Below are positions 33,784 through 39,532 of a DNA stretch of 55,555 nucleotides, piece by piece. The stretch is from contig JALSGQ010000093.1 of NCBI GenBank assembly GCA_026982665.1, positions 1 through 55,555 of the forward strand, read 5' to 3'. The stretch is from Hyphomicrobiales bacterium (GTDB lineage: Bacteria > Pseudomonadota > Alphaproteobacteria > Rhizobiales > Aestuariivirgaceae). The notes below the pieces were generated by a model. That model was not told the origin of the DNA. It saw nothing but the letters and a program-made list of their open reading frames with translations, and made no database searches. Position 1 is the first letter of the stretch; every line of letters begins with the position of its first letter. Made by a program: the position numbers and the translations under genes.

Positions 33784-35418
33784 TTATCGTTCTTCCTGTG
33801 GTGAAACGCCAGCGTAGAGGATGCCGCACAGGTGCGCCATCTCACGGTTGCAGGTGGCTAGATCGTTGACGGAGAAATCGCGCAGCCGCTCGTGCCCGCA
33901 GGCGCGGGCGAACATCTTCATCAGCTCCGTGGTGTTGTGCAGGAAGCGTTGCAGGCGGCGGGCGGCGGCATCCACGTTCAGGCGAGCGCGCAGGGCCTCG
34001 TCCTGCGTGGCGATGCCGGCGGGGCAGTTGCCGGTGTGGCAGATGCGGGCGGAGACGCAGCCGATGGCCTGCAACGCGGCGCTGCCCAGGGCGATGGAAT
34101 CGGCACCCAGCGCCAGCGCCTTGACGCAATCGGCGGCGGTGCGCAGGCCGCCGGTGATGATCAGCGAGACATGCCGTGCCTTGCGGGTATCCAGGTGGCG
34201 GCGGGCGCGGGCCAGCGCCGGAATGGTGGGAATGGAAATGTTGTCGCGCAGCAGGCGCGGGGAAGCGCCGGTACCGCCACCACGACCGTCGAGGATGAGG
34301 TAGTCGGCTCCGGCCTGAAGCGCGAAGTCGATGTCGGCCTCGATGTGGTTGGCAGACAGCTTGAAACCAACGGGAATGCCGCCGGAACGCTCGCGCACCC
34401 TCTCGGCAAAGCGGCGGAAATCCTCCGGTGTTGCGAGGTCGGGAAAGGCGGGCGGCGAGATGGCGGCCTCACCCTCCGGCAGGCCGCGCACCTCGGCAAT
34501 GCGGCTCTTCACCTTGGCGGCGGGCAGGTGGCCGCCCAGCCCGGTCTTTGCCGCCTGCCCGGCCTTGAAATGCAGCGCCGCCACCTGCTCCGGAATATCC
34601 TCGCGCCAGCCGAACATGGCCGGCCCCAGCTCGAACAGGTAGCGCTCGTTCTCCGCCCGCTCTTCCGGCAGCATGCCACCCTCGCCGGAGCAGATGCCGG
34701 TGCCAACGGCTGCCGCGCCGCGCGCCAGCGCCACCTTCGCCTCCTGCGAGATGGAACCGAAGCTCATGTCGGCGATCAGCAGCGGGGTGGCCAGCTTCAG
34801 TGGTCGCCGTGCTGCCGGGCCGATGACGACTTCCGTTGCCACCGGTGCATCGTCGGGCAGCGGGCGGTGGGCAAGCTGGGCGGGCAGCAGCAGGATGTCT
34901 TCCCAGCGTGGCAGGGCGGGCCGCGGCACGCCCATGGAAGCCAGCTCGCCATGATGGCCCAGCTCCTGCAGGTCATGCCGGGCCAGCAGGTGCACGTGGG
35001 TCAGCGTCGGCTCCTCCGGTGTGGCGCGCGCCTGCGGCATGGCATCGCTGCGGCAGGGTTCGGGGGCCGGGTCGCCGGGCTTCAGGCCCTGCAGTGCCTC
35101 ATGGCTGTTGTCGCACCAGGGAGCATCGGCGGTGGCCTTGCAGTTGCACAGCAGGGCGGGGCCGGAGGCATCGGCACGGAAGATCAATGGCTCGATGCCG
35201 GTGCCACGATGATTGCCATCGCAGAAGGGCGGCGTGCAGGTGCGCCCGCAGCGGCACCAGGCATAGAAGCGCCCCTCCTCCAGCTCCACGATGCTCGGTT
35301 GCAGGCTGCCGATGAGTGGCGTGCTGTCGTCGCACGGCGCGCCGATGGGCACACGTTTCGGCCTGTCGGCCGTGCCATTGTCATCGGCACCGCTGCTGCC
35401 TTTGCCGTGGTCAGTCAT
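33784..35418 (-). CDS. Double-CDGSH domain fused to FMN-binding glutamate-synthase-like domain
   Basis: The protein has 544 residues. Two CDGSH-type [2Fe-2S] motifs occupy the N-terminus: Cys55, Cys57, Cys66, His70 (CRCGRTCTPPFCDGNH) and Cys91, Cys93, Cys102, His106 (CNCKATADAPWCDNSH). From about residue 150 a glutamate-synthase central/FMN domain follows: LIADMSFGSISQEAKVALA, GICSGEGGML, VGFKLSANHIEADIDFALQAGADYLILDGRGGGTGA, and a cluster motif ICHTGNCPAGIAT, compatible with a [3Fe-4S] centre. There is no glutaminase domain, so it is probably an oxidoreductase of unknown substrate. Its ATG lies inside the 3' end of the TrmO-like gene (8-bp overlap), implying coupled translation. Confidence 0.85.
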   Translation of the reverse strand: MTDHGKGSSGADDNGTADRPKRVPIGAPCDDSTPLIGSLQPSIVELEEGRFYAWCRCGRTCTPPFCDGNHRGTGIEPLIFRADASGPALLCNCKATADAPWCDNSHEALQGLKPGDPAPEPCRSDAMPQARATPEEPTLTHVHLLARHDLQELGHHGELASMGVPRPALPRWEDILLLPAQLAHRPLPDDAPVATEVVIGPAARRPLKLATPLLIADMSFGSISQEAKVALARGAAAVGTGICSGEGGMLPEERAENERYLFELGPAMFGWREDIPEQVAALHFKAGQAAKTGLGGHLPAAKVKSRIAEVRGLPEGEAAISPPAFPDLATPEDFRRFAERVRERSGGIPVGFKLSANHIEADIDFALQAGADYLILDGRGGGTGASPRLLRDNISIPTIPALARARRHLDTRKARHVSLIITGGLRTAADCVKALALGADSIALGSAALQAIGCVSARICHTGNCPAGIATQDEALRARLNVDAAARRLQRFLHNTTELMKMFARACGHERLRDFSVNDLATCNREMAHLCGILYAGVSPQEER

Positions 35419-35932
35419 GATCGTTGCAGAAACCTTCAGGGGCATCGATGGCCGGGTTCCAGGGACGGATGTCGATGAGCGGCGTGCCGTCGATGCAGTC
35501 GATGGCATCCACCTCGATGATGCCCGCCGGCTGGTCGAGTGAAAGGATGCGCACGGTGGACATGGCGATATTGTTGGGGCGCACAGGCGAGCGCAGGGCG
35601 AACACGCCAAATGCACCGGGCTGATGGCGCGGGCGCTGGATGATGATATGCCGTGCCGCCCTGTGCATCCAGTAGAGCGCAATCACGTGCTCGTATGCTT
35701 CAAGCCCGGTCAGCCCCTGCCGGTATTCGGCGCGGATGTGCAGGAAAGCCTTCAGGCCGTGCTCGCGCATGCGCTGGCGCGCCTCCGTCAGGTTGCGCGG
35801 ACAGTCCTTGCGCGTCTTCCACGGGGTCTGCACATGGCCGATGAAGGCCAGCCGCGGGCCATCGGCCACTTCCGCCGGGTCGAACGGCAGGGTGATCTCC
35901 CCTTCGCGCACTTGCTCGTCAGGTTTCGACAT
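35411..35932 (-). CDS. TrmO/TsaA-family (VirR/Trm-O type) tRNA methyltransferase-like protein
   Basis: The protein has 173 residues. Seen: FIGHVQTPWKTRKDCPRN at the N-terminus (the family's I-G-x-x-x-T/S-P-x substrate strand), GLTGLEAYEHVIALYWMH, and the signature HPxxP-like RSPVRPNNIAMSTVRI, then VDAIDCIDGTPLIDIRPWNP. TrmO-type proteins N6-methylate t6A37 in tRNA-Thr; some homologues have no proven role. The gene overlaps the following CDGSH-glutamate synthase gene by eight bases. A strong terminator upstream (35988-36017) separates it from the MlaC-type genes. Confidence 0.85.
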   Translation of the reverse strand: MSKPDEQVREGEITLPFDPAEVADGPRLAFIGHVQTPWKTRKDCPRNLTEARQRMREHGLKAFLHIRAEYRQGLTGLEAYEHVIALYWMHRAARHIIIQRPRHQPGAFGVFALRSPVRPNNIAMSTVRILSLDQPAGIIEVDAIDCIDGTPLIDIRPWNPAIDAPEGFCNDHD

Positions 35933-35987: not shown

Positions 35988-36017
35988 GAAAGGCGCGCCG
36001 AAAAGGGCGCGCCTTTC
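35988..36017 (-). terminator. Rho-independent terminator after the MlaC genes
   Basis: Perfect 12-bp arms, GAAAGGCGCGCC and its complement, enclose a six-base loop. On the minus strand the stem runs into TTTCTTCT. It should end the MlaC-type transcript before the TrmO-like gene. Confidence 0.85.
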
Positions 36018-36065: not shown

Positions 36066-36680
36066 TCAGCGGTTCAGCGCCATCACCAACGCGCCGACAT
36101 CTCCCTGCTTCCTCTGCAGGTACTTGTAGAACAGGCTGCGCTGCAGGTAGCTGAGAGAGAAGCCCATCACCTTCACATCCACCACCCGCCAGCCGACGCG
36201 CGTCTTGCGCAGTTTCCACACCGGCGTGTAGGTGCTGCCATTGGCCAGCCATACCTTCGAGCGCACCAGCCAGGCATCGCCATCCTGCCGCGGCGTCTTC
36301 TCGATGACCGCCTTCGTTACACGGTAGCGTTGCGACTGGTCGGCAAAGTAGCGGGCCATGAACTGATGCACTCCGCGCACATACAGCGGGCGCTGCTTGC
36401 GATCCAGCTGCGTGCGGTAGCGGCCAATGGAGAACATGGCAATGGAGTGCACATCCGCGCGGCGGCGCAGGACATCGGCAAAGGCCTTGTGCGTTCCCTT
36501 GCGCTGGGCACGCAGAAGGTCAGTGGCCGTGGCCTGCATGTATTGCACCGCCGGGTGCAGGCCAGCCGCCTGCGCCTGGCCGGCATGCGCCGTGCCATGC
36601 AGCGATGCTGCCAGCAGCAGCCCCATGCCCAGCACCACCTGCCGCCGATGCATTGTTGCCGAAAACAGCGAACCCGTCAT
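36066..36680 (-). CDS. MlaC/Ttg2D-family periplasmic lipid-binding protein, copy 1
   Basis: The protein has 204 residues. The N-terminus has a twin-arginine-like signal, HRRQVVLGMGLLLAASLHGTAHA. The body fits the MlaC fold pattern: an early helical part with FSIGRYRTQLDRKQRPLYVRG, FMARYFADQSQRY, then VWKLRKTRVGWRVVDVKVMGFSLSYLQRS, equivalent to MlaC's Gwk-v-Dv-i-G-S motif. MlaC shuttles phospholipid between the outer and inner membrane. This copy is the most diverged of the three and the last in the direction of transcription. ATG 36680 was chosen since the signal follows it closely; ATG 36653 is possible. No MlaB/D/E/F genes are nearby. Confidence 0.78.
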   Translation of the reverse strand: MTGSLFSATMHRRQVVLGMGLLLAASLHGTAHAGQAQAAGLHPAVQYMQATATDLLRAQRKGTHKAFADVLRRRADVHSIAMFSIGRYRTQLDRKQRPLYVRGVHQFMARYFADQSQRYRVTKAVIEKTPRQDGDAWLVRSKVWLANGSTYTPVWKLRKTRVGWRVVDVKVMGFSLSYLQRSLFYKYLQRKQGDVGALVMALNR

Positions 36681-36921
36681 GATCTCCAATCCCGCACGAC
36701 CATCTGCACAAGACAATTGCCAGCCAATCACCTTTCCCTTACGCGGATCCCCTCACCGAAAACAGGGGGGAAGCGTGCACCAGGCCCGGCTGCCACCACG
36801 CAAATCAACGCTGCCATGTTAACCTTGACGACTGGTTAAAGGCAACTGCCGCCAACAGCCCCGGCATGGCTGGAAATGACAATTTGCGCCAGATGAGCTG
36901 GGCTTGTCGCCCCGGAAATGC

Positions 36922-37518
36922 TCACGCTGTACCCTGCCGCAGCTTCTGCAGCAGTACCGCGACATCGCCACCGGAACGCTTCAGGGTGGAAGCAAACCGC
37001 TCACGCATGCGCATGGCCAGCCAGATGTTGTGCAGGTTCACATCAATAACGCGGTATTTGCCACCGGCATTGGCAAGCCGCCACTGCATGGGCCGCTTCC
37101 TGCCGGCATAGTCCACGATTTCCGCCACCACCAGGGTGCGGCTTCCCCTCGTCGACACACGCTTCGCACGCACTTCCAGCGCCACCAGCTGCTTGCGATG
37201 CTTCACGAACATCCCGGCCACGTAATCGAGCATCGCATCCCGATACTGGCGCTTCATCTCATCCGTCAACTGCCGGTAATGCCGCCCCAGGGCAAAGCGC
37301 ACGAATGCATCCATGTCCACATGGGCAGAGAAGAGCCTGCCCAGCTCGCTTTTCAGGCTGGCATCATCACGCCCAGAGGCCGCCAGCCGCACCACCCAGG
37401 TGCCCAGCCGCTCCACGAACTCTTCAGCCGAAAGGCGCGCGGCCAGGGCCGGAGAAACACCCAGCAGGGCCACGAAGCCCGCAACAAAATAACGACGATC
37501 AATGCTGGTGATGGACAT
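36922..37518 (-). CDS. MlaC/Ttg2D-family periplasmic lipid-binding protein, copy 2
   Basis: The protein has 198 residues. ATG 37518 follows GGGGGAG at nine bases. The signal peptide has twin arginines: DRRYFVAGFVALLGVSPALAA. Then comes the family pattern RFALGRHYRQLTDEMKRQYR, LDYVAGMFVKHRKQL, a VVAEIVDYAGRKRPMQWRL strand and YRVIDVNLHNIWLAMRMRERF, ending RSGGDVAVLLQKLRQ. It resembles copy 3 more than copy 1 (shared RFALG, LDYxAG, NIxxIWL and KSGGD/RSGGD elements), consistent with local duplication and divergence. It is separated from copy 1 by 241 bp and from copy 3 by 129 bp. Confidence 0.82.
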   Translation of the reverse strand: MSITSIDRRYFVAGFVALLGVSPALAARLSAEEFVERLGTWVVRLAASGRDDASLKSELGRLFSAHVDMDAFVRFALGRHYRQLTDEMKRQYRDAMLDYVAGMFVKHRKQLVALEVRAKRVSTRGSRTLVVAEIVDYAGRKRPMQWRLANAGGKYRVIDVNLHNIWLAMRMRERFASTLKRSGGDVAVLLQKLRQGTA

Positions 37519-37647
37519 TGAAACACACTCCCCCACACACAAGTTACCCGCTTGTCAGGATCAAGCAGCCCGCCATCTCCACCGCAGCAGGCCGTGCGGC
37601 AACCATATAGGGGAACAACCTTAAGTTTCGGTAACGCCACCCGCGCT

Positions 37648-38277
37648 TCAGGCTGCGTTTTCGCGCAGGTAGTTCAGCAGGGCATCGAAGTCCCCGCCCG
37701 ACTTGTTGAGGATGGAAACGAACTTGTCGCGCATGCGCAGGGAAAGCCAGATGCCCCTGATGTTCAGGTCTCCGACGCGCAGCGGTCCGCCCCCGGTGTA
37801 GATGCGCCACAGCACCGGGGAAGTCTTGCCATCATCAAAGACAAGGCGGGTTTCCACGGTCGTCCATGCACCGCGGGTGTGCTGTTTCACCGCCCTGATG
37901 TCCTGTGCGGCAAGATCCTTGCGATACCACACGAACAGCCCGGCAATGTAGTCCAGCACCAGCCGGTAATATTCCGGCATCAGTTCCTTCGGCATTCGGC
38001 GGCGATACTTGCCCAGGGCGAAGCGCGCCACGGCACGGATGTCTGCACTGCGGGTGAGCAGGTTCAGGAACTGGCGCTTGAGCCGGGCATCACTGGCATT
38101 GGAGCGCGCCAGCGCAATGACCTTGCCGCCCAGTTCCACGGCAAAATCCGCGGCACTCGTGCGTGCATGTGCAGGAGCAGCGGAAAATGCTGCAAGGGAC
38201 AGCGTTGCAATTCCCACAGCCGGCAGCATCTGCAAGACATTCCGGCGGGAAGGGAAAGATGCATTCCGAAAATCCAT
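37648..38277 (-). CDS. MlaC/Ttg2D-family periplasmic lipid-binding protein, copy 3
   Basis: The protein has 209 residues. ATG 38277 has GGAG eight bases upstream. The N-terminus, SRRNVLQMLPAVGIATLSLAAFSAAPAHA, is a twin-arginine-like signal peptide with a clear AHA cleavage site. Body motifs: RFALGKYRRRMPKELMPEYYR, LDYIAGLFVWYRKDL, LRVGDLNIRGIWLSLRMRDKF and KSGGDFDALLNYLREN. It is first of the three in the direction of transcription. The promoter should lie in the 289-bp gap to the divergent ArsR-methyltransferase gene. In hopanoid clusters a similar protein is called HpnM, but no hopanoid gene is here. Confidence 0.82.
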   Translation of the reverse strand: MDFRNASFPSRRNVLQMLPAVGIATLSLAAFSAAPAHARTSAADFAVELGGKVIALARSNASDARLKRQFLNLLTRSADIRAVARFALGKYRRRMPKELMPEYYRLVLDYIAGLFVWYRKDLAAQDIRAVKQHTRGAWTTVETRLVFDDGKTSPVLWRIYTGGGPLRVGDLNIRGIWLSLRMRDKFVSILNKSGGDFDALLNYLRENAA

Positions 38278-38566: not shown

Positions 38567-39532
38567 ATGGCGACGGAGGCAGACAGAAGCAAATTGCTGG
38601 CGGCACTGAAGGCGGCGGCAGAGTCCACGCGCCTGCGCCTGCTGTTCATCCTCTCGCACGGAGAGTTCAACGTCAGCGAGCTGACACGCATCCTGGGGCA
38701 GAGCCAGCCACGCCTTTCACGCCACCTGAAGCTGATGGTGGATGCCGGCCTGCTGGAGCGGCAGCGGGAGGGCAGCTGGGTGCTGTTTCGCCTGCGCGAG
38801 GACGGCACCGGCGGAGAGCTGGCACAGTTCATAACCCGCCTCGGGGAAGCGGACAACGACCTCATTGCCGATGACCTGCGCAAGGTGCAGGCGGTGCTGG
38901 CGGAACGCCGCGAGAAGGCGGAAGCCTATTTCGCCTCCGTTGCACCGGAGTGGGATCGCATCCGCTCGCTGCACGTGGCCGAGGGGGCAGTGGAGGCCGC
39001 CATGCTGGACATGGCCGGTGAAGGCCCATTTGCCCTGCACGTGGACATCGGCACCGGCACCGGCCGCATGCTGGAGCTGTTTGCCTCCCGCACGCGCGAG
39101 GCAGTGGGCATCGACAGCTCGCGCGAGATGCTGGCGGCGGCGCGCGGGCGGCTGGCGGCAGAGGAACTGCGGCACGTGAAGCTGCGGCTGGCCGACGCCC
39201 GCGAGCTGCCGCTGGACGATGCCGTGGCGGACCTGGTGAGCATCCACCAGGTGCTGCATTACCTCGACGAGCCGGCGGCAGTGCTGGCCGAGGCCGCACG
39301 CATACTCGCCCCCGGCGGGCGGCTGCTGGTGGCCGATTTCGCGCCGCACGATCTGGAGTTCCTGCGCGATGAATGCGCGCACCGGCGGCTAGGCATCAAG
39401 CAGGACGACATGCGCCGCTGGCTCGATCGTGCCGGGCTGCTGTTGCTGCGGCAGCACAACCTGCCACCACCACCGGAAAAGGGAGAGCATGGCCTTACCG
39501 TGTCCCTGTGGCTGGCGCAAAAACCACGATGA
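38567..39532 (+). CDS. ArsR-type regulator fused to SAM-dependent methyltransferase
   Basis: The protein has 321 residues. Residues 8-80 form an ArsR-family winged helix (ESTRLRLLFILSHGEFNVSELTRILGQSQPRLSRHLKLM). Residues 130-300 form a class-I methyltransferase: motif I VDIGTGTGRMLELF, GIDSSREMLAAAR, ADARELPLDDAVADLVSIHQVLHYLDEP. Similar fusions sit next to metF or metH in many alphaproteobacteria and are thought to sense S-adenosylmethionine or homocysteine metabolism; here no met gene adjoins, but glyA, which feeds one-carbon units, lies directly downstream and converges. AGGAGAAGG precedes the ATG. Confidence 0.88.
   Translation: MATEADRSKLLAALKAAAESTRLRLLFILSHGEFNVSELTRILGQSQPRLSRHLKLMVDAGLLERQREGSWVLFRLREDGTGGELAQFITRLGEADNDLIADDLRKVQAVLAERREKAEAYFASVAPEWDRIRSLHVAEGAVEAAMLDMAGEGPFALHVDIGTGTGRMLELFASRTREAVGIDSSREMLAAARGRLAAEELRHVKLRLADARELPLDDAVADLVSIHQVLHYLDEPAAVLAEAARILAPGGRLLVADFAPHDLEFLRDECAHRRLGIKQDDMRRWLDRAGLLLLRQHNLPPPPEKGEHGLTVSLWLAQKPR

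Follow-up and report, generated by a model that had tools for sequence, protein, structure and literature searches.

Three MlaC-superfamily genes with twin-arginine signals form an array in a Hyphomicrobiales genome in which no MlaA is detected

Results

An array of three intact MlaC-superfamily genes

The stretch of DNA analysed (the window, 55,555 nucleotides) is an entire contig (C93) of a 2.13 Mb genome in 167 contigs that is scored 100% complete. The genus is probably Thermopetrobacter, judging from the named relatives nearest copy 1 of the array, among them Thermopetrobacter sp. TC1; the family also contains Aestuariivirga, Taklimakanibacter and Anderseniella. The array and its surroundings comprise the following features:

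35411..35932, minus strand: TrmO-like tRNA methyltransferase (PF01980, 93.9 bits), the downstream neighbour in the genus
35988..36017, no strand assigned: 12-bp perfect inverted repeat 3' of copy 1 (arms 35988-35999 and 36006-36017), terminator-like, without a clear T run
36066..36680, minus strand: copy 1, gamma-type MlaC-domain protein, 204 aa, signal HRRQVVLGMGLLLAAS
36922..37518, minus strand: copy 2, divergent beta-type MlaC-domain protein, 198 aa, signal DRRYFVAGFVALLG
37648..38277, minus strand: copy 3, beta-type MlaC-domain protein, 209 aa, signal SRRNVLQMLPAVG
38567..39532, plus strand: ArsR-type regulator fused to a SAM methyltransferase (Pfam HTH_5 and Methyltransf_11), divergent

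The first-pass annotation had described three same-strand genes of 204, 198 and 209 residues with an MlaC pattern and had proposed an enlarged set of periplasmic lipid carriers, which may serve different lipids or membranes. The positions, strand and lengths it gave are correct, all three ORFs are intact, and an enlarged set of carriers from the MlaC family is supported. The three copies are members of the MlaC superfamily: each passes the gathering score of the PF05494 MlaC profile (66.4, 79.0 and 58.8 bits for copies 1, 2 and 3; cut-off 26), and each matches solved MlaC/Ttg2D chains in sequence comparison. The elements RFALG, LDY(V/I)AG, IWLxxRMR and SGGD, noted earlier as common to copies 2 and 3, are present in both (39% identity), as are the signal motifs HRRQVV, DRRYFV and SRRNVL in copies 1, 2 and 3, respectively.

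More specific models fit less well. Copy 2 reaches 14.8 bits with the MlaC equivalog NF011697 (PRK15117), missing its cut-off of 195, and copies 1 and 3 give no match to it. HpnM (TIGR03481), a branch of the MlaC family named for its association with hopanoid biosynthesis, is the top-scoring NCBI model for copies 1 and 2, at 40.6 and 35.9 bits and thus far below its cut-off of 160.1; copy 3 has no HpnM match. Because the copies miss both equivalog cut-offs, the names MlaC and HpnM need qualification here. This best match, together with an above-cut-off HpnN in two genus mates (G002 and G005), would suit a role for the copies as HpnM-like partners of the HpnN RND transporter in moving hopanoids. 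Such a role is very unlikely, however: the TIGR03481 cut-off is missed widely, HpnN was not found in the window's own genome (G000; top score 26.7 bits, for a frame of 1132 aa), and the array is not adjacent to HpnN in relatives. With scores this low and no HpnN found in the genome, an HpnM/HpnN system was rejected.

Structure prediction was consistent with the profile results for the two copies whose models were compared. AlphaFold2 models of copies 1 and 2 (pLDDT 87.9 and 84.3) have the helix-sheet-helix layout of MlaC, and their strong structural matches in Foldseek were MlaC-family entries only, several with bound phospholipid. In VIA-align comparisons with MlaC structures, Z reached 18.9 for copy 1 and 19.0 for copy 2, and 12 MlaC-family entries (Z 10.8-19.0) scored higher than the next fold. 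Copies 1 and 2 are thus predicted to fold like lipid-bound MlaC.

A shared terminator had been placed after copy 1; the inverted repeat exists at that position but is absent from the terminator calls, and the terminator is best described as plausible. No sigma-70 promoters were found at the array in our scan. Genes related to the TrmO-like gene occur at 7 other loci. At 33784-35682 on the minus strand, a 632-aa frame carries, by eye, CDGSH-type iron-sulfur motifs and a glutamate-synthase-like domain, and relatives of this frame are present at two other loci of the genus.

A short MlaD, an MlaE and no MlaA in the same genome

MlaC is usually regarded as a single shuttle between MlaA and the MlaFED transporter. 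Profile searches of the window's own genome recovered four MlaC-domain genes, namely copies 1-3 and one gene of a further class (delta) on contig C80, adjoining metF. A single MlaE (TIGR00056, 251.9 bits; cut-off 212.2) lies on C126 beside an ATPase whose best model is MlaF, at a score below the MlaF cut-off, and a single MlaD of 153 aa lies on C145 (TIGR04430, 146.3 bits; cut-off 135). The latter is a true, short MlaD, which at this length should not span the periplasm or reach the outer membrane. Since MlaE, MlaF and MlaD are encoded on these other contigs, the earlier statement that there is no Mla transporter holds for the locus only and is false for the genome as a whole; likewise, the array on C93 does not have the location within an mlaFEDCB operon that the MlaC equivalog specifies. 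MlaA is absent from the genome (PF04333 gave no match up to E = 1) and from the 10 other genomes of the genus (0/11 overall), leaving the MlaE, MlaF and MlaD portion of the classical MlaA-MlaC-MlaFED pathway.

In domain, fold and lipid-binding shuttle architecture, the copies resemble E. coli MlaC and Pseudomonas Ttg2D (PF05494; PDB 5UWA, 5UWB, 6HSY). E. coli has one mlaC gene, located in mlaFEDCB and carrying a Sec-like signal (MFKRLMMVALLV), and its product has an MlaA partner (PMC10719372); the window genome, in contrast, has several paralogs located apart from mlaFED, twin-arginine signals and no MlaA.

Paralogs of different origin within an ancestral gene order

MlaC genes from 36 genomes of the family were assigned to four classes, of which beta and gamma each form one clade family-wide and alpha is a group defined by position that a smaller tree splits in two. 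In four sister genera, the gene order is MlaA-alpha-beta-gamma, opposite a divergent ArsR-methyltransferase gene and often followed by metF. This ArsR-methyltransferase anchor was recovered at 32/34 loci compared and at 14/15 further loci of a family coded f2, and because it also adjoins the window array, the array and the sister-genus loci are positional orthologs. MlaA, which adjoins alpha in the four sister genera, is found in 11/36 family genomes and 0/11 in the genus, and all 11 genomes of the genus likewise have no alpha. Family-wide, alpha and MlaA occur together in 10 genomes and are both missing from 21, with alpha alone in 3 and MlaA alone in 0 (Fisher p 2e-6, without correction for phylogeny). 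Our refined reading is that the array derives from the ancestral MlaA-alpha-beta-gamma layout.

Copy 3 falls in the family-specific beta clade (support 100/99) and copy 1 in the gamma clade, which is common to at least five Hyphomicrobiales families; on these placements, copy 1 is the gamma ortholog of the genus and copy 3 its beta ortholog. The tree also sets copy 1 apart from copies 2 and 3, in line with the divergence first noted for it. Copy 2 sits within the genus beta clade (99/98) on a long branch of 2.1-2.5 changes per site. Approximately unbiased (AU) tests rejected its placement outside beta (p=0.011) and nearly rejected placement outside the genus betas (p=0.068), so that a position inside the genus clade is only suggested. 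Since copy 2 was seen in no genome of the genus other than the window genome (11 genomes), it is most likely a fast-evolving beta duplicate made within the genus. Two other origins were rejected: that of a lost alpha by the AU test (p=0.010), and a plasmid origin by the lack of any tblastn match among 72,556 plasmids. The copies are paralogs that differ in origin, and the gamma clade is ancient. As for conservation of the triplet in relatives, the beta and gamma pair recurs in most genomes of the genus, and copy 2 is confined to the window genome.

The joint loss of MlaA and alpha and the very long branch of copy 2 could also mean that these MlaC genes are relics, redundant and drifting since MlaA was lost, with copy 2 foremost. 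We consider this improbable in view of the intact ORFs and the retained signal motif. Furthermore, of the three copies it is copy 2 that scores best with the MlaC profile, and its predicted fold is confident; the beta and gamma pair has been retained in most members of a genus with genomes of ~2 Mb.

Conserved twin-arginine signals in three of the four classes

A twin arginine precedes the hydrophobic core in 11/12 alpha, 44/48 beta, 39/42 gamma and 8/27 delta proteins, and is thereby conserved in 94/102 alpha, beta and gamma proteins of the family. The classic Tat motif is S-R-R-x-F-L-K; motifs in relatives are often near this consensus, and those of the window (HRRQVV, DRRYFV, SRRNVL) are looser. 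A TatC gene is present in the genome (244.8 bits, C117). The possibility of Tat export, raised earlier from the three motifs, gains from the conservation of the twin arginine among orthologs and from this TatC, which together make Tat export well supported; the three copies are probably exported folded through Tat. Tat-type export is not universal in gamma, since the f2 gammas lack a twin arginine ahead of the hydrophobic core.

Class differences at the partner-contact face

In E. coli MlaC, residues E169, V171 and S172 contact MlaD (PMC11289387), and V171 crosslinks to MlaA (PMC10719372). At the position of E169, alpha has D in 7/12, beta K/R in 44/46 and gamma L/M/V in 42/42 proteins; at that of S172, alpha and beta have W and all gammas have S. 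(The column of an MlaA-contact residue quoted as K84, which is S84 in the E. coli sequence, was omitted.) That the classes differ on this face argues for different partners or modes, and the departure of beta from the E. coli pattern at 169 suggests that beta may not dock to MlaD. Charge was discarded as a class marker, all classes being basic.

A simpler explanation is that the copies are interchangeable, dosage-type MlaC shuttles for one MlaFED complex, with another lipoprotein or a porin replacing MlaA. Retention of MlaE in 36/36 family genomes searched, the true short MlaD of the window genome and the retained fold of the modelled copies (1 and 2) all agree with it. Its difficulty is that beta and gamma are separate clades family-wide with different docking-face residues and that gamma persists in genomes that have no MlaE (below); we judge it rather unlikely, though it is the strongest of the alternatives.

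Gamma in genomes without the transporter

In an order-wide sample of 297 Hyphomicrobiales genomes (at least 95% complete), MlaC was present in 72 and MlaE in 274. MlaC was found in 11/23 MlaE-negative genomes, 10 of them from f2 (one of these ten, G318, being taken as MlaE-negative from its absence in the list of positives), a comparison made without phylogeny correction and driven by this one family. The MlaC proteins of f2, f19 and f21 and one of f7 group with copy 1 in the gamma clade (SH-aLRT 100, 34 rows). Nearly all f2 gammas adjoin an ArsR-methyltransferase gene and metF; the ArsR-methyltransferase is also near gamma in G036 and G055, the MlaE-less genomes that were checked further, which have neither MlaD nor MlaA. 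The presence of gamma in these 11 MlaE-less genomes indicates that it is independent of MlaFED there.

For the occurrence of an MlaC-family protein away from mla operons, HpnM provides a precedent. The MlaE-less genome G182 encodes a true HpnM (L183:2971-3762, 203.9 bits) with an MlaA-like gene nearby, that is, MlaA and an MlaC-family protein without an Mla transporter.

Several further observations concern the surroundings of these genes. MlaE frames in the order sample are mostly ~260-340 aa where the family has MlaC arrays; in most families lacking MlaC they are ~390-430 aa and may be of the STAS-fused Mpc type. An Extensin-like_C gene (PF06904) comes directly after gamma-MlaC at several family loci, L041:6369-7594 and L048:10554-11758 among them; in Aestuariivirga-type genomes the two genes overlap by 1-4 bp, a possible operon with a cell-wall enzyme. 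This gene is not adjacent to the window array. Delta-MlaC directly follows a PlsC-like acyltransferase (PF19576/PF01553) at L039:9117-10770, L042, L043 and L049, suggesting a link to phospholipid acylation, whereas the delta of the window genome adjoins metF instead.

Discussion

Copies 1-3 are most likely periplasmic lipid-binding shuttles of the MlaC fold that would be exported through Tat already folded. They probably descend from a cluster with the ancestral order MlaA-MlaC(alpha)-MlaC(beta)-MlaC(gamma), from which the genus would have lost MlaA and alpha before a later beta duplication. The betas (copies 3 and 2) would most likely deliver phospholipids to the single MlaFED complex or collect them from it, their outer-membrane step involving either direct contact between membranes or some acceptor that is not MlaA, and gamma (copy 1) would most likely carry lipid along a route with no need of MlaFED. 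Tat use, lipid cargo, direction and partners are what we infer. We give an even chance to this division of labour, in which beta copies shuttle phospholipid for an MlaA-less, short-MlaD MlaFED and gamma shuttles lipid by a separate route. Somewhat more tentatively, gamma-MlaC may be a distinct carrier class of several Hyphomicrobiales families that serves an undescribed periplasmic route without MlaFED or MlaA, coexisting here with duplicated betas that serve an MlaA-less Mla system.

Two MlaA-less systems described in the literature both work with a long MCE needle. Brucella Mpc, an MCE lipid transport system of Hyphomicrobiales, has neither MlaA nor MlaC; its needle is a long MpcD, its MpcE is fused to a STAS domain, and its lipoprotein resembles PqiC (PMC12436622). 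Veillonella Mla also has neither MlaA nor MlaC, a long MlaD spanning the periplasm (PMC10665443). The window genome shares the lack of MlaA with both but has a short MlaD and several MlaCs, an MlaA-less combination that fits neither system. The literature searched, the coverage of which was incomplete, contained no description of MlaC genes in tandem arrays or of MlaC export through Tat.

An MlaC gene alone does not prove an Mla pathway. With MlaA missing and the gamma lineage surviving without the transporter, the shuttle seems to have been rewired: here it exists in several copies, bears Tat-type signals and has persisted after the loss of MlaA, and in a sister family one class has outlived the transporter itself. 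Such natural gene loss makes the partner choice of MlaC and the direction of transport testable.
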